Shown here: positions 20,567 to 53,574 of the stretch, in pieces
How positions within the stretch are numbered: the stretch's first letter is position 1
How the letters are laid out: each line of letters begins with the position of its first letter
Translations under genes and position numbers: made by a program
NCBI GenBank assembly: GCA_029775915.1
Contig: JARVKA010000004.1
Location: 1 to 56,014 of the forward strand
Reading direction: 5' to 3'
Length of the DNA stretch: 56,014 bases
Source: Nitrososphaeria archaeon
GTDB taxonomy: Archaea; Thermoproteota; Nitrososphaeria; Nitrososphaerales; JANXEG01
The notes under the pieces: generated by a model
What the model saw: the letters and a program-made list of their open reading frames with translations, nothing else
Databases searched by the model: none
What the model was told of the DNA's origin: nothing

Positions 20567-20685
20567 TGGTGCCGGGGACGGGTTTCGAACCCGCGACCTT
20601 TATCCGATTATGCTAAATGAGCATAATCTCCAGATTATGAGTCACACCCTTGAGACTGGCGCTCCACCAGCTGAGCTACCCCGGC
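20567..20685 (-). tRNA. Elongator tRNA-Met (CAT) with two non-canonical introns
   Basis: The acceptor stem is GCCGGGG/CCCCGGC with A73 and an encoded CCA; the T arm is GCGGG-TTCGAAA-CCCGT. A normal cloverleaf needs removal of about 13 nt inside the 5' strand of the anticodon stem (about 20643-20655), which rebuilds CCAGA-CTCATAA-TCTGG, and about 30 nt in the variable region (about 20599-20628), which rebuilds AGGTC. The second insert holds a perfect 9-bp hairpin (GATTATGCT/AGCATAATC). There is no intron at the common 37/38 site. The acceptor and D-arm sequence fit elongator Met rather than Ile2. Splice sites can shift by a base because of repeats. Confidence 0.85.
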
Positions 20686-42013: not shown

Positions 42014-42926
42014 CTTTCAACTCTCTTTACGAGATTCTGCTACTGGAACTAATGCGGTTCATTTAACGATTTACTACTTTCAACTCTCTTTACGAGATTC
42101 TGATAGGGTGGTTGACCCGGTGCAAGTTGGTCTTTAAAGATAAATGCTAATACTTTCAACTCTCTTTACGAGATTCTTGTAATTTCTGGTATTCCTTCAT
42201 TTTGGGGAACCAAAACTTTCAACTCTCTTTACGAGATTCTAGACCCAGGTACTGCTGAGTATGTGGATGTAGCAAAACTAACTTTCAACTCTCTTTACGA
42301 GATTCATAGATATGTAATTGAATTGTGGAAAAATATGAAAGACACCTTTCAACTCTCTTTACGAGATTCTCGGCGAAACGAACGGAAGCGCAGAATGGGA
42401 TTTAACTTTCAACTCTCTTTACGAGATTCGAATTTCGTTGATAGGTAGAAAGGTATAATAACTTTTATTCTTTCAACTCTCTTTACGAGATTCCAGCACA
42501 TAGATAGTGCTGTTTGGCAGACCACCAGTACTTTCAACTCTCTTTACGAGATTCGGGTAGAATTGCTATTGGACCTATTGATGTTACTCCCTTTCAACTC
42601 TCTTTACGAGATTCCTTATCGCATTTATTGATGCTTTAAACGGTATTTCAATCTTTCAACTCTCTTTACGAGATTCATTTTTAATCACTTTTTGGAATTT
42701 CGTTGATAGGTAGAACTTTCAACTCTCTTTACGAGATTCGCTCTACCTATACCAGTAAGCTCTCTTTTTGTTTCCCACTTTCAACTCTCTTTACGAGATT
42801 CTTGTGCTTTAAAATCAAGCTTAATTGGGCATATCCAGACTTTCAACTCTCTTTACGAGATTCCTAATTCTTGCTCTAGCTATGCTTTTCTTTCACCTTG
42901 ACCTTTCAACTCTCTTTACGAGATTC
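42014..42926 (-). CRISPR. Type I-A CRISPR array: 15 repeats, 14 spacers
   Basis: Fifteen copies of a 24-bp repeat are seen with no mismatches noticed. On the plus strand each begins CTTTCAACTC and ends TTTACGAGATTC, so in transcript sense (minus) it ends GTTGAAAG, the usual crenarchaeal 5' handle of crRNAs. Repeats start at 42014, 42077, 42153, 42216, 42282, 42346, 42406, 42470, 42531, 42591, 42653, 42716, 42778, 42840 and 42903. Spacers are 36-42 nt, except one of 52 nt (42101-42152). Two spacers (42430-42469 and 42677-42715) share 21 nt. The array lies downstream of cas4 in the same direction as the cas operon. Confidence 0.98.
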
Positions 42927-43051
42927 CGAGGATTTTTTGCCTTCTTTAGTTAAGAAGAGGTTCAAATTAAACTTTTCTAAAGAGTTACCTTTCCCTGCAC
43001 CCTTTCTTGCATAACATGAGCGTAGGAGCAGGGAATTCATATAAATTAAAA
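42927..43051 (-). promoter_or_regulatory. CRISPR leader
   Basis: The 125 bp between the cas4 stop and the first repeat in transcript sense is where the leader should be. It is AT-rich near the array and contains an 8-bp inverted repeat TTCCCTGC (42991-42998) / GCAGGGAA (43028-43035). A TATA-like AGTTTAATTTG (minus strand, about 42963-42973) could start array transcription. Position and orientation support leader function; no motif proves it. Confidence 0.6.
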
Positions 43052-43639
43052 TTAAGTTTGTTTACAAACCCATCTATACCCACAAGTTTTACATGCAACT
43101 CTCTCTTTATAAGGAGGTAAGTATTCATATTCAATTATCTTCTTTATCTGATTTAAAGTCCATAAAACATGCTTCTTAATATCATCAGTTATCTCCACGA
43201 TAACTACTTTGTCTGACTTGAGATAATGTATAAGAGCCTTCTTAACATTCTTACCCAACACGTCTTCCACAAGCAATGAATATGCTGCTATTTGATATAG
43301 ATGATTTTTAGGCACTCTCCTAAGTGCCTTAGAAGCTTTTCTTTCAACTATCACAACTTCCTCACCTATTTGTATCACATCTACCTTCCCTTGCAAGTTT
43401 AACCTCATCGACTTAAGGCAAAGTTGAGAAATGCCTATTGGTCCCAACCTTTTGCCGAGTAATGTTTTCCTCCGCTTATCTCTCTCTTCTTCATCTTTAT
43501 GTAACTCCTCACCCTCTCTCATAAGTTCAGTAATTCTTTCTCTAACTCCTAGAACCTCTGAAAAGTATACTATTCTTGGGCAAAAGTGGTATTGCTTGAT
43601 TAAAAAGATTGGTATAAGTTGTGCTTCATCTTCACTCAA
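43052..43639 (-). CDS. cas4: Cas4 RecB-like nuclease
   Basis: Cas4 processes pre-spacers and helps select PAM-flanked ends. The 195-residue protein has HFCPRIVYF (first Cys), the nuclease core NLQGKVDVIQ and VIVERKASK (Asp and ExK), and the C-terminal CKTCGYRWVC that completes the iron-sulfur cluster. It is the last gene of the cas operon, overlapping cas2 by 4 nt, and adjoins the leader. Confidence 0.93.
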   Translation of the reverse strand: MSEDEAQLIPIFLIKQYHFCPRIVYFSEVLGVRERITELMREGEELHKDEEERDKRRKTLLGKRLGPIGISQLCLKSMRLNLQGKVDVIQIGEEVVIVERKASKALRRVPKNHLYQIAAYSLLVEDVLGKNVKKALIHYLKSDKVVIVEITDDIKKHVLWTLNQIKKIIEYEYLPPYKERVACKTCGYRWVCKQT

Positions 43640-43914
43640 ATTACGATTACACTCTCATCCTCTTCTTTATACTCTTTTCCTATAACCTCTCTTAAATTCA
43701 AATCAGCATTGCATATTACAAATATCTGTATATTTCCTTTATCATCTTTGAGTACATTTTTTAATGTGAATGTTAACTCTTTCCTCATAGCTTGAGGAAG
43801 ATTACCGAGGAAAGCACTTTTTTGTATACGCGAGAGACCAAAGTTCTTACATACCTCACTAACTCTTAACCTTATCTCATCATCAGATATATCATATATT
43901 ATTAATGTCTTCAT
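43636..43914 (-). CDS. cas2: Cas2 integration subunit
   Basis: This 92-residue ferredoxin-fold protein starts KTLIIYDISDDEIRLRVSEV with the conserved Asp after the first strand, then LSRIQKSAFLGNL and a final strand IQIFVICNADL. It bridges two Cas1 dimers in the integrase. It overlaps cas1 and cas4 by 4 nt each (ATGA-type junctions). Confidence 0.95.
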   Translation of the reverse strand: MKTLIIYDISDDEIRLRVSEVCKNFGLSRIQKSAFLGNLPQAMRKELTFTLKNVLKDDKGNIQIFVICNADLNLREVIGKEYKEEDESVIVI

Positions 43915-44921
43915 CTCTCAACATACCCGGTGTAAGTCGGCTCATACCCGAGCAAGTAGCCCTTTATCCTTTGAGCTTGCAAGAGCATGTGAGCCTCTAT
44001 AGGTGCTGATCTATTCTTAAATGTCACTCTCTCCTTAAGCCTCTCTTCCAATTTTAAGAGTAATAGCTTTCTAATGTCTTTTGTAAGCTCACCATCTTTA
44101 ACAATATCTTTAGGCCTCTCTCTTACCATTCTAAATACTACTCTATCAACGATAGGCTGCCTAAACTCTTCCATAAAGTCCATAGTTAAAGCAGGTCTCC
44201 TTGGAGTGTTAATATGCAAAAACCCTCTGTAAGGGTCTAAGCTTGATAACTCTAAAGCCAGTGTGCAATGAGAAGCGAGTACACCATATCCGTAATTAAG
44301 TAGAAGGTTTAAGGGATCAATAGGATTCTCGAATCTCTTCTTCCTACCTGGGAATTCTATAACTCCCTCAAAACTTTTAGCTACCATAATCCAGTAGATT
44401 TCAGCCACCTCAGCTTCAAGTCTTATCAACTCTCCTCTAACCCTCTCCAACTCACCTTTAACCTCTAAAAGCTTTTCGACATACCTTTTCACTTTATAAG
44501 CTGCTTCATGTAACTCATTCGCTAACTTTGGCTTATTATCCTCTCTATTGTATGCCATCGACTTTAACAAAGAATATTGATTAAGTATCTTCGCTTCAGC
44601 GAATGCCTTCGCTAACTCAAGCCCCCTCCCATCATTCAAGGCTTTTATTTGTTCCTCTACAACTCTCATCCCCTTTCTAATTAAAGGCAAAAGCCTTCCT
44701 AAAGGCTTGCCTCTTCCATTTAAGATTATAAGTTGTACACCATTCTTTAAGAGAAGGCGTAACGCAGCTGCAGATAAGGATGCCCCTTTTGTGCAAATAA
44801 GAACGTGACTAAGTTGTGCTACAGGTATCTCAGCTATTGCTTTCCCATCCTTCTTGACTAGCACTCTCTCTTCCTTTGCTCCTATAAAGCATCCAGGCTC
44901 GTTTATTATAAGTCTCCTCAT
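43911..44921 (-). CDS. cas1: Cas1 integrase
   Basis: This 336-residue integrase inserts new spacers. The N-terminal beta domain (MRRLIINEPGCFIGAKEERV) leads to the helical catalytic domain with metal ligands Glu in EAEVAEIYW (about 170), His in RGFLHINT (about 233) and Asp in ALTMDFMEEFRQPIVDR (about 248). All are intact. It overlaps csa1 and cas2 by 4 nt. Confidence 0.97.
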   Translation of the reverse strand: MRRLIINEPGCFIGAKEERVLVKKDGKAIAEIPVAQLSHVLICTKGASLSAAALRLLLKNGVQLIILNGRGKPLGRLLPLIRKGMRVVEEQIKALNDGRGLELAKAFAEAKILNQYSLLKSMAYNREDNKPKLANELHEAAYKVKRYVEKLLEVKGELERVRGELIRLEAEVAEIYWIMVAKSFEGVIEFPGRKKRFENPIDPLNLLLNYGYGVLASHCTLALELSSLDPYRGFLHINTPRRPALTMDFMEEFRQPIVDRVVFRMVRERPKDIVKDGELTKDIRKLLLLKLEERLKERVTFKNRSAPIEAHMLLQAQRIKGYLLGYEPTYTGYVER

Positions 44922-45859
44922 TTATTACAATATGTGTAGTATGGACAATAATCTGGACATTTAGAAGGCATACCAGGATCGGTTCTTTTTTCTATCAGCA
45001 AAGATGCTTCATCCCTTATCTCTAAAAACTCTGTTCTAAGCTCATCACCAATTAAGAAGAAGTCACTCTTTATATGAGGGGTTGGTGCATTTGGCTCTAT
45101 AGATATATAGAGCGTTATTCCAAAATTAACCTCTATGTTTTTATCTGCCTCTATAGCTAATGCGTAACCAGCGGAATTATACTTATGGAAGGTTCTAACA
45201 TCTCCAGTCTTAAGGTCTATTAAAGCATTGAAAGGTGTATAAACATCTACAGAGAGTTCTCTACTTAAGCCCACTAAACTCCCATCAACCTTCATCTCTG
45301 ATATTGATGGTAAAGTCTCTAACACTAAGGAATCAATATCTATGTGTTGGAATTTAGAGAGAGCGAGGTCGAGGCTAGCAGATATTTGTAGTGCTAAATA
45401 TTTGTAAAATTTGTGTAAAAATGGTATTAATTGCAAGCAATCTTCTTTTAATATGTAAACCTTTGAACTAGCTTCATTTAATGAGTTAGAGACTATTTCA
45501 TCCTCAAGTCCTAAAAGTAGTTCGTAAAGCATCCATCCACCAATCTTTTTATTCTGATATAGCAAGCTCTTAGCAGCGGTTATTGTTGAAGAAAGGATAG
45601 CATGATAAGCTATACCTCTGAACATCTTAAAGCTTGGTGGGGGCAATACCTTAACCACACGCTTTAAGTATATATCCCTCATCGTTGGACAATATCTCGA
45701 GGAGAGTTCACTAACAGATAATAAATATTTTCGCAATGGTTTTACTGGTTCCTTTGTATAACTCCAACCCCTCATTTCATCACTAATCCCATAAGAATCT
45801 ATTTGCTCGCGGAGAAGCTTAAATCTCTTCTCCACTTCTTCTCTCCTTAAAAGTAACAT
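44918..45859 (-). CDS. csa1: Csa1 (Cas4-family, type I-A adaptation protein)
   Basis: Csa1 is the second, larger Cas4-like protein of type I-A systems. Visible are SVSELSSRYCPTMRDIYLKR (first Cys, about residue 56), FRGIAYHAIL, the nuclease core FNALIDLKTGD and the C-terminal CPDYCPYYTYC for the iron-sulfur cluster. The frame opens at 45877, but the internal ATG at 45859 reduces the overlap with cas6 to 41 nt, still large; I take it as the likelier start. It heads the csa1-cas1-cas2-cas4 adaptation block of the operon. Confidence 0.9.
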   Translation of the reverse strand: MLLLRREEVEKRFKLLREQIDSYGISDEMRGWSYTKEPVKPLRKYLLSVSELSSRYCPTMRDIYLKRVVKVLPPPSFKMFRGIAYHAILSSTITAAKSLLYQNKKIGGWMLYELLLGLEDEIVSNSLNEASSKVYILKEDCLQLIPFLHKFYKYLALQISASLDLALSKFQHIDIDSLVLETLPSISEMKVDGSLVGLSRELSVDVYTPFNALIDLKTGDVRTFHKYNSAGYALAIEADKNIEVNFGITLYISIEPNAPTPHIKSDFFLIGDELRTEFLEIRDEASLLIEKRTDPGMPSKCPDYCPYYTYCNK

Positions 45860-46757
45860 CGTTAACCTCACTCTCAACCATCGGTTGGTATTTTATCATT
45901 CCAAAACCTGCACTCCTTCCCCCTCCCACATTTGTTAATTCGCCAAATCTTAGTAAGGTATCCACAACTTTTGCATAGCGTTTATCATAATATTCACTTA
46001 AAATACTGAAGTGAACAGTTCCAGTAAAACCAACAACCCACTTATTCATTGTTTTATGCTCATACACTCTATGTGTGATAATTCCCTTAGGGAAGCCAGA
46101 TATAACTATAGCACCTTCATCAAGCCAATCTAAAAACTTAATTGGATTAACTAATGGTTTATTTATGAAATTACACCAAAGTTTTAGTAAGTTCCTAAAA
46201 AGATGCTCAGGTTGGGGTAAAGGGATGAATTTATATGCTGAATGATTTGCAAGTACGAGTTTACGAAAAGAAGGATCTTTTCTAAGATAAACTCTACATA
46301 CTTTACAAAACTTTGGTGACGATCTGAAGTATGTAGGCGTGATAAATGTAACACTAAATTCTTTTACAGGCTCATACGAATAAAATGTTGATGGATCGAC
46401 TTCTTTAACCTCCACCATTTTAATAAGGAATTCAGAGCCGATTAAAGGCAGTGTAGATAAATCCTTTATTGATTGTATTAATGATAAGAAAAGATCATCA
46501 TTTAAGATAGAGAAGCCGATTCTAGTGATACAAGGTTTGTTAATAGTTGAGTAAATCACATGAAATTTATTATTAACCTTTAACAATGGTGTTGATGAAA
46601 ATGGAGCTATTTTCTTACTTGCATGCAATTCATCAGCAAGCTCTTTATTACTTTTAGTTAAGATATTGTAAAAAAGGCCACGAATAGCGAATCCTGAGTA
46701 TTGTTGAAACTTTATAGGCTTATCTATTAATAAATCTATAAAGAGTATGTGGATCAT
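45819..46757 (-). CDS. cas6: Cas6 crRNA-processing endoribonuclease
   Basis: Cas6 cuts the pre-crRNA within repeats, leaving the GTTGAAAG-type handle. The 312-residue protein has the two ferredoxin-like domains and the C-terminal Gly-rich loop RFGELTNVGGGRSAGFGMI. Catalytic His is not fixed in this family; H-containing N-terminal segments include FHVIYST. A short Cys cluster (FCKVC) lies mid-protein. It overlaps cas8a by 4 nt and csa1 substantially. Confidence 0.9.
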   Translation of the reverse strand: MIHILFIDLLIDKPIKFQQYSGFAIRGLFYNILTKSNKELADELHASKKIAPFSSTPLLKVNNKFHVIYSTINKPCITRIGFSILNDDLFLSLIQSIKDLSTLPLIGSEFLIKMVEVKEVDPSTFYSYEPVKEFSVTFITPTYFRSSPKFCKVCRVYLRKDPSFRKLVLANHSAYKFIPLPQPEHLFRNLLKLWCNFINKPLVNPIKFLDWLDEGAIVISGFPKGIITHRVYEHKTMNKWVVGFTGTVHFSILSEYYDKRYAKVVDTLLRFGELTNVGGGRSAGFGMIKYQPMVESEVNDVTFKERRSGEEI

Positions 46758-47863
46758 AATCTTTTAGAGAGTATATAAGTTGCGTATGAGAATACTTCAT
46801 CTCTTGGTAAGTAGAGTTTTTTATCTTCAGGCAACTCCTTATTGAGTTTATTAACATTATGTATAGCTAAGTTTAAACTTTCAGGATCTTTATAATTAAT
46901 CGCTCTGCTAATATGCAATATTATATCAATAATTCTTGATCGAAAGTTATCATTAAAAGCTAAGAAACTTACTTCACATAAGAAGCGCTTAAATTCATAA
47001 GTAAATTCACATAATTCATTAAAGAAATTAATGATTGGAGACGTTCTGATTATCTTAAACTCTCTAACAGCTTCCCCTCCACCTTCTTCACGTTGAAGAA
47101 CCCAATAGATAAAGTCTGGTGGGTTTAATAATAAGAATGATGAAAGGTCTAATATTGAAAGAGTTAAGAGTGGTATGGTTTGGCTTGGGAAGTATATAAA
47201 CAAACGTGAGAGTCGACGCCCTTCCTCACCATATATTTGTGAAGCTATGCGTCTCACTATAAATAAATCTTCTTCACAAATATCAACCCCGCTACGAGGC
47301 GATACAAGTAAGTGTATTCTCGTATTCTCGACTCTTTCAAAGATACAGTAATATGCGAATCCTATATAGTAAAGAATGACAAGTAAATCTGATGCACGCA
47401 TAGAGTGACCAGTGCTAAAGGCATTCCATCTCCTTAACCCTTTGCCATATATAGGCGCTATGGACATTGGTAATAGAGATAATGATTTATCTCCAGTCTT
47501 TCTTAACGTTATTTGTTGTTCAATCCATTCTAATATTCCCTCTTTATAACTTAATTTTTCACATACCTTCTCCATTAAATTCTTAAGATCAGTACTTGCA
47601 GGGACGTTCTTTGTCCCACCTTTATTAATTGGTATTTTACCAAGCCTACTTTCAATATCAGCACTCTCAACAATATCTTTAAGAACATTTGCGATGTAAT
47701 TAATACGTTCCTCTCTAATGTAAAAATCTGCTAATGGTCTCCCTCCAATTCTTGCTTTAAGCTTTAAAAGTGGATCAGCTCTGTAAAGAAACTCGAAAAG
47801 ACCATTTAAGATAATTGTATCTATAAATAAACTACCAGTACTCTCTATAGTTATTTTTCCCAT
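46754..47863 (-). CDS. cas8a2: Cas8a large subunit (Csa4/Cas8a2-like)
   Basis: This 369-residue protein sits between cas3'' and cas6, exactly where crenarchaeal type I-A operons carry csa4 (cas8a2), and its length fits. Sequence landmarks are weak, as usual for large subunits: GLRRWNAFSTGHSMRASDLL and ICEEDLFIVRRIASQIYGEE. The large subunit recognises the PAM in the Cascade complex. Assignment is by position and size more than by motif. Overlaps with both neighbours are 1-4 nt. Confidence 0.7.
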   Translation of the reverse strand: MGKITIESTGSLFIDTIILNGLFEFLYRADPLLKLKARIGGRPLADFYIREERINYIANVLKDIVESADIESRLGKIPINKGGTKNVPASTDLKNLMEKVCEKLSYKEGILEWIEQQITLRKTGDKSLSLLPMSIAPIYGKGLRRWNAFSTGHSMRASDLLVILYYIGFAYYCIFERVENTRIHLLVSPRSGVDICEEDLFIVRRIASQIYGEEGRRLSRLFIYFPSQTIPLLTLSILDLSSFLLLNPPDFIYWVLQREEGGGEAVREFKIIRTSPIINFFNELCEFTYEFKRFLCEVSFLAFNDNFRSRIIDIILHISRAINYKDPESLNLAIHNVNKLNKELPEDKKLYLPRDEVFSYATYILSKRL

Positions 47864-48612
47864 TATAAAGCCCTCCTTTTTGCTGCTTCATCATCAACAA
47901 GTGTTAGTGGTAGTAAAAAAGATGCAACGAGTAGCCTCAAGCTGGGTGCAATTGGTGAACCATCAATATAGTGAATAATAAGAGCGATATTTTTAATAAG
48001 TTCATTTTTATCAATAAACTTAAGTTCGATTTTTGTACCAATTTGTTCATTTAACCATTTAACGATTTTGTATGAGTCTTCAACCCATTTTATCTCTTCA
48101 TCCTCAAAGTTCTTAAAGCATGCTAACAAAAGTTCCATGGTGGGTGCTCTGAGCATTTGCGCAATTCGAGAGCTCATAGTTAAAAGTTGTGCTTCATGAT
48201 GTAAATAAACCGTAGCTGTAGCTAAATAAGCGATCTGTTTTACTTCAAGCTCGTGTATTAAAGAGTTAAGTATTATGTATGCACTTACATGTTCATGCCT
48301 AAAACCTTTTAATGACCTTATATCATAACAATAATCTTGGTAAATCCTCGTTAACTTACCTAAATCGTGATGTGCTATTATATATTTAAAAGCTGTTTCA
48401 GTACATCGAAGGATTGTGTCATAATCTACTTCAAGAATGGATGCTATACGTTTAGCGATTGTGAATAAAGTTCTTTTTTTGTACAATTTCTCCCATATAT
48501 CTAAGCAAATGCATATATGATCAATATAAAGCTCTTTTAATCCACCCTCTTTTTTCGCTTTATATGAAAATATTTTATACTCACGTAAAGTATTCGGTAT
48601 GGTAAGTGTCAT
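47863..48612 (-). CDS. cas3hd: Cas3'' HD nuclease
   Basis: This 249-residue HD-family nuclease has the HD signature IAHHDLGKLTRIYQ (about residues 83-96) and further metal-ligand His residues in FRHEHVSAYI and YLHHEAQLL. In type I-A the HD nuclease is separate from the helicase and both act with Cascade in target degradation. It lies 1 nt after the cas3' stop. Confidence 0.92.
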   Translation of the reverse strand: MTLTIPNTLREYKIFSYKAKKEGGLKELYIDHICICLDIWEKLYKKRTLFTIAKRIASILEVDYDTILRCTETAFKYIIAHHDLGKLTRIYQDYCYDIRSLKGFRHEHVSAYIILNSLIHELEVKQIAYLATATVYLHHEAQLLTMSSRIAQMLRAPTMELLLACFKNFEDEEIKWVEDSYKIVKWLNEQIGTKIELKFIDKNELIKNIALIIHYIDGSPIAPSLRLLVASFLLPLTLVDDEAAKRRAL

Positions 48613-48613
48613 T

Positions 48614-50530
48614 TTAATGACTCAACCTCCAAAGCCCTATCTCATCATCATAATAATCAGGATTAACGAGATAAATTCCTTCTCTCAATCGTTGCGTTGA
48701 TCTTTGTATCTTGTAAACTTTTACTCTCTTTCCCTCATACACATAAAAAGGCATTAACTCATAAACATACCCACCATTGATTTTTAAACAATCAGGTATT
48801 TTAGACGCATCCTTAAGGTTTAAAGGGAAGGATGAGTTAATAACTTCATCCTCCTTTAAAACTGTAAGATACTCCTCTTTATCTTCTTCATCTTTTTTAT
48901 TAAACTTACTTAAAAGGTCTTTAAGAGAGATTGTTATCTCTTCTAATACACTATACTCAGTCACAACATTCTTTCCCTTTATTTTATGCTCTACATGAGC
49001 ATTCATACATTTGAGGTTATCTTTTAATGCAACAAGCGTTAATTGAAGACCAGGTCTAGTTCTTAAGTTATCGATCATTTGCCAATCGATTGTAAATGTT
49101 AATAATCCTGTACCCTCTAAATAAGTTACATATTGTTTAACTTCATTATCGAGTTGTGTAAAAATAAGATCTGTATATGCATCATTAAGTAAATTTTGCA
49201 TCGCTTTGTATTCAAAAAGGTAAGGAGCTAAGTTACTCTCATATTCTTTAATAGCCTCTCTACTTCTTTTAATAAATTCAAGAGGGTATGGTAGTGGATC
49301 CTTTACATCCACTATCACTACCTTCCCTTTCTCACCCTTAAACCTTGCACATCTTCCACTACGCTGTATGAGACTATCAACTGGTGAAAGCTCAGTTATA
49401 AGTAAGTCTGATGATATATCAAGTCCTGCTTCAATTACTTGAGTTGCAAAAACCGCTATTCTATTTACTTTTATTGAGTTAGGTAATGATTCACCGCATT
49501 CTTCACATAAGACCTTAATGCTCGAATTTTTATCATCTTTTATGTATGATAATGGCTTTATATTGTTACATTCATCACATTTAGCCTCTCTCATCATTAA
49601 CTTTAACACTCTTTCTCTCCTTTCTCTTTCATCCCTTCTTATCCTTGAGTGAATAAGAATTTTATATACACCTTCTTCATTAAAATTTTTGTATAACTCT
49701 GTAGCTCTCTCTACAGTATTACACACAACTAAAAGCCTTTTCCACCAGCCACCTTCCTGTTTAAATATCTCATTTATATCCTTATCTTCCTTAAATGTAG
49801 CTTCTTCAATTATTCCTCTATATGTTGATGGGTCCTCATTAAACTCCTCATCTTTCTCAATTACATATTCAATATCTCTTTCAGGAATGCCATTTAACAC
49901 ATACTCTTCAACACATTTAGGGATGGTAGCACTCATGAATACGATTGGTACTCCTACTTTGTAAAGGCTTCGAATAATCGCTCTTAAAAGGCTAAAAGCA
50001 TGTAAATTTTCATCATGAAGCATATGAGCTTCATCAAGAACCAAAAGCGAGGTAGCGATAAAGCCTGCAGGTCTTTCAAGATGAGAACCCCCTATAGTCC
50101 TTCTGGCATATGATAGAGTGAATGTATCAAAAGTAGTGATCGCCACATCTGCAAAGAGCTCATCAGAACTTTCTATACCTCCATGAAAAGCTTTAATGTT
50201 CACGTTAAATTGTTTGTTTATCCCTTTCTTTAACTTCTCCAAATAACGATCTTCTATTTTATCCCTCACACTATTACAAAGAACTCTAGTTGGAAGGACA
50301 TAACAGAGCCAACTAAAGCTTAACCATTTATCGTTAATTAACTGATATAGGAAGGGGCTTAAACCGATTAACGTCTTCCCATAACCAGTCGGTAACTTCA
50401 CAAGGCATATTTTAGGCTTTAAAACTTCCTTATCTATTGTAGTAATAAGCTTTTCGATAGCTTTTCTTTGGAAATATCTTAATTCACCCTCAAGAGAAAA
50501 AATCTGATTTAAAAAGCTCAAGATAACCAA
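48614..50530 (-). CDS. cas3: Cas3' helicase with zinc-ribbon insertion
   Basis: This 638-residue superfamily-2 helicase has Walker A LPTGYGKTLIG (about 46-56), DEAH in LLVLDEAHML (about 166), motif III MSATIP (about 198) and motif VI QRSGRCARFKG (about 385). It lacks an HD domain, which is encoded by the next gene. In the second RecA domain two CxxC pairs (CDECNN... and ...CEECG, about 318-350) form a likely zinc ribbon. It unwinds target DNA in interference. It overlaps cas5 by 13 nt. Confidence 0.95.
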   Translation of the reverse strand: MVILSFLNQIFSLEGELRYFQRKAIEKLITTIDKEVLKPKICLVKLPTGYGKTLIGLSPFLYQLINDKWLSFSWLCYVLPTRVLCNSVRDKIEDRYLEKLKKGINKQFNVNIKAFHGGIESSDELFADVAITTFDTFTLSYARRTIGGSHLERPAGFIATSLLVLDEAHMLHDENLHAFSLLRAIIRSLYKVGVPIVFMSATIPKCVEEYVLNGIPERDIEYVIEKDEEFNEDPSTYRGIIEEATFKEDKDINEIFKQEGGWWKRLLVVCNTVERATELYKNFNEEGVYKILIHSRIRRDERERRERVLKLMMREAKCDECNNIKPLSYIKDDKNSSIKVLCEECGESLPNSIKVNRIAVFATQVIEAGLDISSDLLITELSPVDSLIQRSGRCARFKGEKGKVVIVDVKDPLPYPLEFIKRSREAIKEYESNLAPYLFEYKAMQNLLNDAYTDLIFTQLDNEVKQYVTYLEGTGLLTFTIDWQMIDNLRTRPGLQLTLVALKDNLKCMNAHVEHKIKGKNVVTEYSVLEEITISLKDLLSKFNKKDEEDKEEYLTVLKEDEVINSSFPLNLKDASKIPDCLKINGGYVYELMPFYVYEGKRVKVYKIQRSTQRLREGIYLVNPDYYDDEIGLWRLSH

Positions 50531-51396
50531 CCTATTTGAATCGGTATAGCTGTACCATCTTCAATCTTCACAAATACATAACCATCCTTTAACCTCACAT
50601 TAACAGCTACTGGTTCATACCATGTATGTGTAAGGCTTTTGCTCCCAAACCTTTCTAACCTTTGTAAAGGAAGGAGAAAACGCCTATACTCTTCTCTTGA
50701 GCTTTTAAAATTCTTAATGTTATGCATTTTATTATCCTCAAGAAGTAAGAGATTAACATGCATGCTCTCTATTATGCCCTTTTCAAAATTCTTAACCCAG
50801 TTGAGCGGTATATACACATTAATACTACCATTATTACCAAGACGCTCAATAATAAGTTGCTTTCTTGGATTCTCTCTTATTGATGAAAAGAATTCAGTCC
50901 CTCCGAGTCTTTGTATTATAGATAAAAACTTTATAATATCTTCATCATTCACCTTGATAGAACTATTTAAATTATCTTTAACATATTTATTCAACTCTTT
51001 AAAATTTATAACATAATATATTGCGAGTTCTCCAGTAGTGATATATTCACATTCTACTGCATCTTTTAATGAAGCTACACGATTTTTCCACATAGCTTCC
51101 AACATTATAACCCTCCAGATATGAGAACTTTTACATAAAGGGTCATGAGGTCTTACAAATGCGTAAGATGATAATTCAACAGCCCAACTTGCTATATCAC
51201 CAACTCTTAAACCATTAATAACTTCTTCTGAACTCATTCCATTAAATTCACAAAGCCCTCTAGCTATTATGGATAAACAAGTGCGTGGAGATGGTAATAA
51301 CGATGATGTGAATACCTCAGCCGCTTCTATGTATCTTGTGGAAAATATGGGTAGCCTAACTTTGATAGAATAGATGCTTATCAATTTATTAATCAT
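50518..51396 (-). CDS. cas5a: Cas5 (type I-A)
   Basis: This 292-residue RAMP caps the 5' handle of the crRNA in Cascade. The N-terminal region SIKVRLPIFSTRYIEAAEVF and the following LLPSPRTCLSIIARGL, the conserved loop of Cas5a proteins, identify it. A C-terminal extension with LERFGSKSLTHTWYEPVAVN follows. It lies 7 nt after cas7. A role as structural subunit rather than nuclease is expected, because Cas6 is present. Confidence 0.85.
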   Translation of the reverse strand: MINKLISIYSIKVRLPIFSTRYIEAAEVFTSSLLPSPRTCLSIIARGLCEFNGMSSEEVINGLRVGDIASWAVELSSYAFVRPHDPLCKSSHIWRVIMLEAMWKNRVASLKDAVECEYITTGELAIYYVINFKELNKYVKDNLNSSIKVNDEDIIKFLSIIQRLGGTEFFSSIRENPRKQLIIERLGNNGSINVYIPLNWVKNFEKGIIESMHVNLLLLEDNKMHNIKNFKSSREEYRRFLLPLQRLERFGSKSLTHTWYEPVAVNVRLKDGYVFVKIEDGTAIPIQIGWLS

Positions 51397-51403
51397 TCAA
51401 ACC

Positions 51404-52456
51404 TTACTCAAGATTGAAGAACTTAAGAGCTTTAATGAATACATCGAAAGGTTCATTCACAAGCTCAACGATTTCATCTAACTTGTCCTGAAAACCATAG
51501 GAGAAGATTTTCACTTTAGCCTTTGTTAAATTTGCAAATCCCTTATAAATATTTACCAAATCTGGATAATAATCATCATATATTGGACTTGTTGGTGCAG
51601 GTATGCTAACAGGCGTATCCATCACAACCACACATATAAGTTCCATAATTTTAACAGAAGGTAAAGCTCTAGCAAGAGAAGCTCCAGCTAAACCGCTCAC
51701 CAATGGTACATAACCTAATATTATAGCTTTACGCCTTAATACACGCTCTTCCTCTTCTAAAACCACATTTTTTGAAGTGAATGAGTAACCAACTTTTCCA
51801 AGATCAGCTATTGATGAAAAAGCAAAGACCCCACTACCATAAGCACGAGGATAAGGCATTTGCATTTGTTTTAACTCAGTAGATATCTTTTCAGGTATAT
51901 TACGAATATTTCTCGTGTGTTGTAAAACTGTAAACGGCGTAGGTGTTCCAAAATCCTCAAGTTCATTAATGTAAGTTGGAAGCATCCAAGAGAACTTTAT
52001 TAGCGATTCTCGCCTCAATGGAGGGTTTGGTCTTAAAAAGCCATGAACATCCTCACCAGCACAATTCTTTATTATCTCATCCTCACCTTTATTCCAGATT
52101 ATCTTAGTATAATCTTCAAGTAATTTATCATTCTCTTTTATTCCCAACCAGTTTGCAAGATCTTCCTTTTTAATCTCTTTAGATGGGACTCTTATAGCCT
52201 CTCTACGTGAGCAAATTAAACATAACTTTCCATTATTATTCTGTAAGAATTCAACCATGTTAGCAAAGTGGTAGTGTTTAAGCATAACACCGCTAATTGC
52301 AACAGCTTCCTCAACGAGCTTATAAGCACCCTTTCCCTCTTTATCTTTAACTTTATATAACACAGGAACTCTTCTAATTTCCTCAGCTCTTTCATTATTA
52401 AGATTATGCATATTAAGTTGAATTTTAGCCGTTAACGCTATCTGCATATCCTTCAC
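51404..52456 (-). CDS. cas7: Cas7 backbone subunit (Csa2/DevR family)
   Basis: This 350-residue RAMP forms the filament along the crRNA. Landmarks are LTAKIQLNMHNLNNERAEE with the RRVPVLYK following, AISGVMLKHYH, the Cys pair LCLICSRREA and PYPRAYGSGVFAFSSIADL. Length and pattern match the archaeal Csa2 proteins. Its start overlaps the csa5 stop by 4 nt. Confidence 0.93.
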   Translation of the reverse strand: MKDMQIALTAKIQLNMHNLNNERAEEIRRVPVLYKVKDKEGKGAYKLVEEAVAISGVMLKHYHFANMVEFLQNNNGKLCLICSRREAIRVPSKEIKKEDLANWLGIKENDKLLEDYTKIIWNKGEDEIIKNCAGEDVHGFLRPNPPLRRESLIKFSWMLPTYINELEDFGTPTPFTVLQHTRNIRNIPEKISTELKQMQMPYPRAYGSGVFAFSSIADLGKVGYSFTSKNVVLEEEERVLRRKAIILGYVPLVSGLAGASLARALPSVKIMELICVVVMDTPVSIPAPTSPIYDDYYPDLVNIYKGFANLTKAKVKIFSYGFQDKLDEIVELVNEPFDVFIKALKFFNLE

Positions 52457-52797
52457 CCCTCTTCACGACATTTCGAGCAAAATCCCCCAGCTCTAGCTAA
52501 CAATACTTGAAGATACTCTTTACCATATTTTTCGTAAAAGCTTTGAGCTTCCTTTATATCCTCATCGGTTGGAAAATTTTTTGTCACTTCCTTTGCATAA
52601 CTACTTAACTCAGGATCATTTTTAAGACGTGAAAATTCCTTCGTAATAAGGGCTATTGTTTCCGAGAATGTCATTAAGTCTTTAACACCTATCCTTAACT
52701 TATGAAATATCTGAGTCCATCTTGCATGATATATGATGAAATGAAGAAGTCTTCCTAGCCTTAATGTACTCTCTTTTTCTAAATACTCTATTACCAT
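52453..52797 (-). CDS. csa5: Csa5 small subunit (Cas11a)
   Basis: This 114-residue, mostly helical protein is the first gene of the operon, the position of csa5 in type I-A. Segments are RLGRLLHFIIYHARWTQIFH, FSETIALITKEFSRLKNDPE and a C-terminal FCSKC pair. It would line the Cascade belly with Cas7. Identification rests on position, size and helical pattern. The ATG at 52797 is preceded by GGTGG and by a TATA box at 52823-52841. Confidence 0.78.
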   Translation of the reverse strand: MVIEYLEKESTLRLGRLLHFIIYHARWTQIFHKLRIGVKDLMTFSETIALITKEFSRLKNDPELSSYAKEVTKNFPTDEDIKEAQSFYEKYGKEYLQVLLARAGGFCSKCREEG

Positions 52798-52822: not shown

Positions 52823-52841
52823 ATTAAATATTTAAATTTTT
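52823..52841 (-). promoter_or_regulatory. TATA region of the cas operon promoter
   Basis: On the minus strand AAAAATTTAAATATTTAAT (52823-52841) is the only strong TATA-like tract upstream of csa5. It is about 26-44 nt from the ATG at 52797, leaving a short leader with GGTGG. The palindrome begins 17 bp further upstream. Confidence 0.5.
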
Positions 52842-52857
52842 GTATTATTCAAGTAGG

Positions 52858-52895
52858 TTTTGGTATTTTTCACAATTTTGTGAAAAATACCAAAA
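52858..52895. promoter_or_regulatory. Perfect 38-bp palindrome between csa3 and the cas operon (operator)
   Basis: TTTTGGTATTTTTCACAA (52858-52875) is followed, after two T, by its exact reverse complement TTGTGAAAAATACCAAAA (52878-52895). The palindrome sits between two divergent TATA boxes, 17 bp from that of the cas operon and 11 bp from that of csa3. An 18-bp perfect inverted repeat fits a dimeric winged-helix regulator, and the CARF-wHTH protein Csa3 next to it is the obvious candidate. A cruciform or a bidirectional terminator is less likely in this position. Confidence 0.75.
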
Positions 52896-52906
52896 CAATT
52901 TAGAAA

Positions 52907-52920
52907 ACTTTAAAAATTTA
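52907..52920 (+). promoter_or_regulatory. TATA region of the csa3 promoter
   Basis: GAAAACTTTAAAAATTTA spans 52903-52920 and reads as a BRE followed by a TATA box. The TATA centre is about 25 nt before the ATG at 52939, which favours a leaderless csa3 message. Confidence 0.5.
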
Positions 52921-52938
52921 AGCACGTTACATCTAATT

Positions 52939-53574
52939 ATGAAGTCCTTCTTTTACACATTAGGGTGGAGCACCACATATATCTTGAGTTTAATAATTAG
53001 ACATGGAATTTCAACCAATGATGAAATAATCTTAATATTACCAAAAGTTAGAGATGAGCAAGCTGAAAAAGCGATTTTAGATGTGAAGAGTATAGCATCA
53101 CAATTAGGAACTTTATCAGTGAAGGAACTCACACTCGATATAAAAGATATACCTAGAAGTGTAATGATGATGATAGAGGAATTAAATCGAAGGAAGGATA
53201 AAGTATGTATAGTGAATCTCAGCGGAGGAATGAGAATATTGGTTATAATCACTTATTTAGCTTGCATTCTCAGCAAAAATGATAATATTATAGTGGAAAT
53301 TGAAACTGAGGATAGAGAGCTTGTAACTCAACTCCCCCTACTTAAATTCAAGTTTGAAGAGTTTATACCAGCAATGGCTTTAGAGATATTAAGAAAGTCT
53401 ATTGAAATAGGCGATTCAAAAGGGTTAAGAGAGTATTTTAACTTGCCTCCATCCACTTTTCATAATTATCTCATATTGTTGGAAAAGGCTAAATTAATCA
53501 ATAGGGAGAGAAAAGGAAAGTCTTATAATATAATTCCTACACAGTTAGGTAGGATCATTGCAACATCATCCTAG
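52939..53574 (+). CDS. csa3: Csa3 CARF-wHTH transcriptional regulator
   Basis: The protein of about 211 residues has an N-terminal CARF domain (SFFYTLGWSTTYILSLIIRH, IVNLSGGMRILVIITYLA with the ligand-binding NLSGGMR loop) and a C-terminal winged helix (GLREYFNLPPSTFHNYLILL, then KAKLINRERKGKSY). Csa3 proteins bind cyclic oligoadenylate and control adaptation, interference or array transcription in type I-A systems. The frame is open from 52840, but those codons translate the palindrome and TATA box, so the ATG at 52939 is the start. Confidence 0.9.
   Translation: MKSFFYTLGWSTTYILSLIIRHGISTNDEIILILPKVRDEQAEKAILDVKSIASQLGTLSVKELTLDIKDIPRSVMMMIEELNRRKDKVCIVNLSGGMRILVIITYLACILSKNDNIIVEIETEDRELVTQLPLLKFKFEEFIPAMALEILRKSIEIGDSKGLREYFNLPPSTFHNYLILLEKAKLINRERKGKSYNIIPTQLGRIIATSS

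Follow-up and report, generated by a model that had tools for sequence, protein, structure and literature searches.

Three PAM classes, CCN, TCN and GTN, are described for the type I-A CRISPR-Cas systems of the Sulfolobales, and in Thermoproteus tenax both CCA and CCT are active PAMs (PMC4390879). The spacers of the CCN-type I-A systems are 36-43 nt long, and overlapping spacers have been seen under intense uptake (PMC3468723). Here, we analyzed a CRISPR array and its adjoining cas genes in a window of 56,014 nucleotides (the whole stretch of DNA considered), which belongs to contig C5 in a 1.47 Mb genome (99% complete, 10 contigs). The spacers of this array measured 36-42 nt, with the exception of spacer 2 (window 42101-42152), which at 52 nt is far above the remaining ones.

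The first-pass annotation had compared the PAM with that of type I-A systems, and the cas set adjoining the array (cas8a2, cas3'/cas3'', cas5a, cas7, csa1 and csa3) is of this type. The signature Cas8a large subunit was found in the operon, cas3' and cas3'' were present as two separate, adjacent ORFs, and only one cas3 in the genome scored over the curated cut-off. Cas7/Csa2 and Cas5a were both detected, the P. furiosus Cas7a matched by Cas7 being a chain of the solved type I-A complexes. Csa1 and Csa3, which belong to the adaptation and regulatory parts, were found as well. The 114-aa ORF in the csa5 position gave no family or PDB match, and the search for a type III module yielded no RAMP match in the genome. 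On its gene content, the locus beside the array is an ordinary type I-A CRISPR-Cas system of a crenarchaeon-like archaeon. The assignment to the archaea is based on gene content and on fibrillarin, for which the best PDB matches are crenarchaeal; a search of genome contigs with Cas1 yielded no relatives. Elsewhere in the window, a 116-nt tRNA match on the minus strand (20570-20685) is probably an intron-containing tRNA gene.

Table 1. Positions of the features discussed in the text (window coordinates unless a contig is named).
Feature	Position	Strand	Remarks
CRISPR array	42014..42926	-	14 spacers of 36-52 nt; crRNA-strand repeat GAATCTCGTAAAGAGAGTTGAAAG
Spacer 7 (older)	42430..42469	-	40 nt; AATAAAAGTTATTATACCTTTCTACCTATCAACGAAATTC
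Shared 21 nt in spacer 7	42430..42450	-	3' half of the crRNA spacer
CCT within spacer 7, putative PAM of the spacer 11 protospacer	42451..42453	-	AGG on the plus strand
Spacer 8	42494..42530	-	34-position overlap with c7, 29 identical; CCA inferred directly 5' of the protospacer
Spacer 11 (newer)	42677..42715	-	39 nt; TTCTACCTATCAACGAAATTCCAAAAAGTGATTAAAAAT; 21-nt overlap with spacer 7
Shared 21 nt in spacer 11	42695..42715	-	5' end of the crRNA spacer
Putative leader	42927..43051	-	between array and cas4; first bases CGAGG[AG]TTTTT conserved in genus-mate G001
cas4	43052..43639	-	TIGR00372
cas2	43639..43917	-	PF09827
cas1	43911..44921	-	only cas1 found in the genome
csa1 (type I-A Cas4-like)	44918..45877	-	TIGR01896, above cut-off
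cas6	45819..46757	-	TIGR01877, 51.5 bits against a cut-off of 58.65
cas8a2/csa4	46754..47863	-	PF09703, 29.9 bits, cut-off 25; TIGR01914, 38.2, below cut-off 232.5
cas3'' (HD nuclease)	47863..48612	-	TIGR01596, above cut-off
cas3' (helicase)	48614..50530	-	TIGR01587, above cut-off
cas5a	50518..51396	-	TIGR01874, 22.8 bits, just under cut-off 23.05
cas7/csa2	51404..52456	-	TIGR01875, above cut-off; P. furiosus Cas7a chain 7r21_I, E=2e-27
Small ORF, csa5 position	52453..52797	-	114 aa
csa3-like CRISPR regulator	52840..53574	+	PF22662, E=1e-24, above cut-off
Second CRISPR array	contig C4:220039-220534 (L022:7040-7535)		8 repeats, 30 nt, GTTTCAAGCCCTTATAGGTATTCTTAGAAC

The array comprises 15 repeats of 24 nt, all identical (CTTTCAACTCTCTTTACGAGATTC), which enclose the 14 spacers. 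On the minus strand, the repeat ends at its 3' end in GTTGAAAG, which resembles the ATTGAAAC handle motif (PMC8482600). In the genus-mate G001, another array degenerates at the end opposite the leader side and, together with the conservation of the cas4-side flank, this places the leader on the right of the array. The minus strand was taken as the crRNA strand because of the 3' end of the repeat, the side of the leader and the side on which CCN is found. Given this leader position, the newest spacer is number 14, and spacer 7 had been followed by three other insertions before spacer 11 was acquired. The PAM end of each spacer is then its leader-proximal end, as is likewise the case in S. solfataricus (PMC3468723). 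Two further observations concern arrays of other genomes. In a genus-mate array (L057:100-189), a 90-nt spacer has about the combined length of two spacers and part of a repeat, and probably arose where a repeat degenerated or was lost. In G006, the units of a second nearby array (L061:8368-9541) are about 80 nt long, because its true repeat is longer than 24 nt (GATGCATTGGAGA precedes it in crRNA sense).

Spacers 7 and 11 have the sequence GAATTTCGTTGATAGGTAGAA in common, i.e. 21 nt on the same strand without a mismatch, exactly as the first-pass annotation had described it and with coordinates that were right to the base. Among the remaining spacer pairs of the array 42014-42926, the longest match measures 9 nt; by chance, about 9e-8 matches of at least 21 nt would be expected between its spacers. 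In spacer 7, the shared block abuts the left-hand repeat; in spacer 11, it abuts the right-hand one. Once merged, the two spacers give a contiguous site, AATAAAAGTTATTATACCTTTCTACCTATCAACGAAATTCCAAAAAGTGATTAAAAAT, whose length of 58 nt agrees with the one already proposed. The two protospacers start 19 nt apart and end 18 nt apart, and a single open frame crosses the whole site (IKVIIPFYLSTKFQKVIKN).

Arrays with identical repeats can recombine, so that one of the two spacers could have been made from the other inside the array, in which case the flank would carry no information on the PAM. However, repeat-mediated exchange preserves whole spacers together with their ends, whereas here the shared block borders opposite repeats and both spacers run on into differing sequence. 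Such an origin, which had been named beforehand as a possible refutation, is therefore extremely improbable. The position of the shared block at opposite ends of the spacers rather points to a staggered sampling of one 58-nt site, in agreement with the overlapping protospacers that had been suggested.

When the minus strand of spacer 7 is read, AATAAAAGTTATTATACCT is directly followed by TTCTACCTATCAACGAAATTC, and in crRNA sense the spacer 11 protospacer is immediately preceded on its 5' side by CCT, as claimed before this analysis. A second flank became readable when the whole genome was searched with the array. An extra match was obtained at the end of contig C4, in an array whose 30-nt repeat is unrelated to the 24-nt repeat of the array 42014-42926. 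The matching sequence is the last spacer (spacer 7) of that array, hereafter c7, which aligns with spacer 8 in opposite orientation over the 34 positions given in Table 1. The local score of this alignment was 20, against a best score of 11 in 40 shuffled spacer sets. All of the differences between the two spacers (5/5) fall on third positions and are synonymous in the frame HIDSAVWQTTS, which indicates that one conserved gene, present in two diverged elements, gave rise to both spacer 8 and c7.

The extension of c7 beyond spacer 8 puts CCA directly 5' (-3 to -1) of the spacer 8 protospacer. The element that supplies this flank is a diverged relative of the one targeted by spacer 8; the flank was probably kept in the real target, because the coding strand reads ATG (Met) and then G at this place. 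In the same alignment, c7 itself would be preceded on its 5' side by CAG (or a synonymous CAR) and not by CCN, and c7 belongs to an array with a repeat different from that of the I-A array. No cas genes were seen beside the C4 array in the stretch of this contig that was read. As none were seen there, and neither a second cas1 nor a type III RAMP was found in the genome, the C4 array is either an orphan or has its own cas genes in an assembly gap. Two arrays of this genome, built on different repeats, have thus taken spacers from one conserved gene that related invaders share.

For the I-A array, both flanks that are readable within the genome are CCN (2/2), namely CCT for spacer 11 and CCA, from the diverged element, for spacer 8. 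CC dinucleotides occupy about 4-5% of the spacer positions, and two CC flanks out of two would be met by chance in about 0.2-0.3% of cases; the number of flanks is small and both are read from other spacers. These data suggest that the adaptation module most likely selects protospacers preceded by CCN, like the known CCN-type I-A systems. The CCN PAM of type I-A put forward in the first-pass annotation is thus strengthened by the I-A cas genes and by the addition of CCA to CCT, while it holds as a PAM inferred from spacers and not as one seen beside a matched target.

Targets were sought in several collections. Neither the exact 21-mer nor codon-degenerate patterns for the spacer 7/11 site, the spacer 8/c7 pair and spacers 1 and 2 revealed a protospacer in IMG/VR, where the matches to those patterns were due to chance and lacked extension. 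The HIDSAVWQTT-degenerate pattern was absent from 84,980 genomes. By blastn against phages and plasmids, the merged site gave chance-level matches only and the spacers taken together gave none. No protospacer was found in 400 genomes of the order, for each of which the two best candidates were scored; the matches were short AT-rich ones (spacer 5) and a few partial others, covering at most 28 of 36-42 nt. In the host genome, no self-target of the spacers was detected, and the spacers of G001 had no convincing target in the 400 genomes of the order.

We consider it very likely that spacers 7 and 11 stem from two separate samplings of overlapping, same-strand positions in one invader, carried out by a I-A module that selects CCN-preceded protospacers. 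The overlap, its geometry, the cas content and the two CCN flanks are direct readings on which this explanation is built. Spacer 7 would be the earlier acquisition, and spacer 11 would have followed as the fourth insertion after it, at an overlapping position of the same strand. The overlap would in this way expose CCT 5' of the spacer 11 protospacer, just as the spacer 8/c7 pair would expose CCA at the same place. What we infer from these readings is the real target with its flanks and the reason why the site was resampled; the same element may have re-infected the host or escaped, and priming may or may not have taken part.

As to this cause, one overlapping pair does not allow priming, re-infection and a naive hot spot to be separated, and the persistent invader or primed adaptation invoked at the outset is possible. 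A first special case of the two-sampling explanation is that a single infection yielded both spacers, or that naive sampling recurred at a locally favoured place, with neither priming nor a long-lived invader; the PAM reading is unaffected by it. We regard it as a serious contender, if not quite a probable one. In S. solfataricus, uptake from one plasmid led to local clusters of overlapping spacers beside CCN sites, whereas natural Sulfolobus arrays are reported to contain overlapping spacers only rarely (PMC3468723), and here three other spacers were inserted between spacers 7 and 11.

A second special case is primed adaptation, where the crRNA of spacer 7 would have partly matched an escaped invader and steered sampling to a nearby place on the same strand. 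Spacer 11 does lie on the same strand, was acquired four insertions later and is 18-19 nt PAM-distal of the spacer 7 protospacer, a direction reported for types I-E and I-B (PMC4390879). An escape mutation in the PAM or seed of spacer 7 would be outside the shared 21 nt and hence invisible in spacer 11. However, a single pair offers no statistics, a spacer overlying the priming site is not diagnostic alone, and the spacer 8/c7 pair is on opposite strands and from diverged elements. Moreover, Sulfolobales experiments gave no orientation bias or sign of priming (reviewed in PMC4390879), and we hold priming to be unlikely. Because neither the PAM nor the seed of spacer 7 falls within the shared 21 nt, the invader may have escaped this spacer before the second sampling. 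The fuller scenario, in which the I-A system revisited the same spot of the invader after such an escape and took the adjacent same-strand protospacer, seems to us quite improbable. If true, a type I-A archaeon, for which priming has been doubted, would have preserved a naturally occurring case of priming-like updating.

Under the explanation by two separate samplings, the arrays of an uncharacterised archaeal type I-A system were enough to obtain its likely PAM, and no virus sequence was needed. Knowledge of the PAM is a requirement for target prediction or for the use of this I-A system.

The closest described systems are the CCN-PAM type I-A systems of Sulfolobales subfamily 1 and T. tenax, with which the present one shares the cas gene set, the 24-nt repeat, the spacer lengths and a CCN (CCT, CCA) at the leader-proximal side of the spacer. 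It differs from them in that the flanks were read from spacers and not from a mapped target, in that the 114-aa ORF at the csa5 position has no match to the csa5 family, and in that Cas8a2 and Cas5a are weakly recognised. In the study of de novo spacers of S. solfataricus P2 (Erdmann and Garrett 2012, PMC3468723), the PAM was likewise obtained from assembled overlapping spacers, but hundreds of experimental spacers were available there, against two natural pairs from one genome here. The present system is itself ordinary, and the reading of its PAM is supported by a second, independent case.
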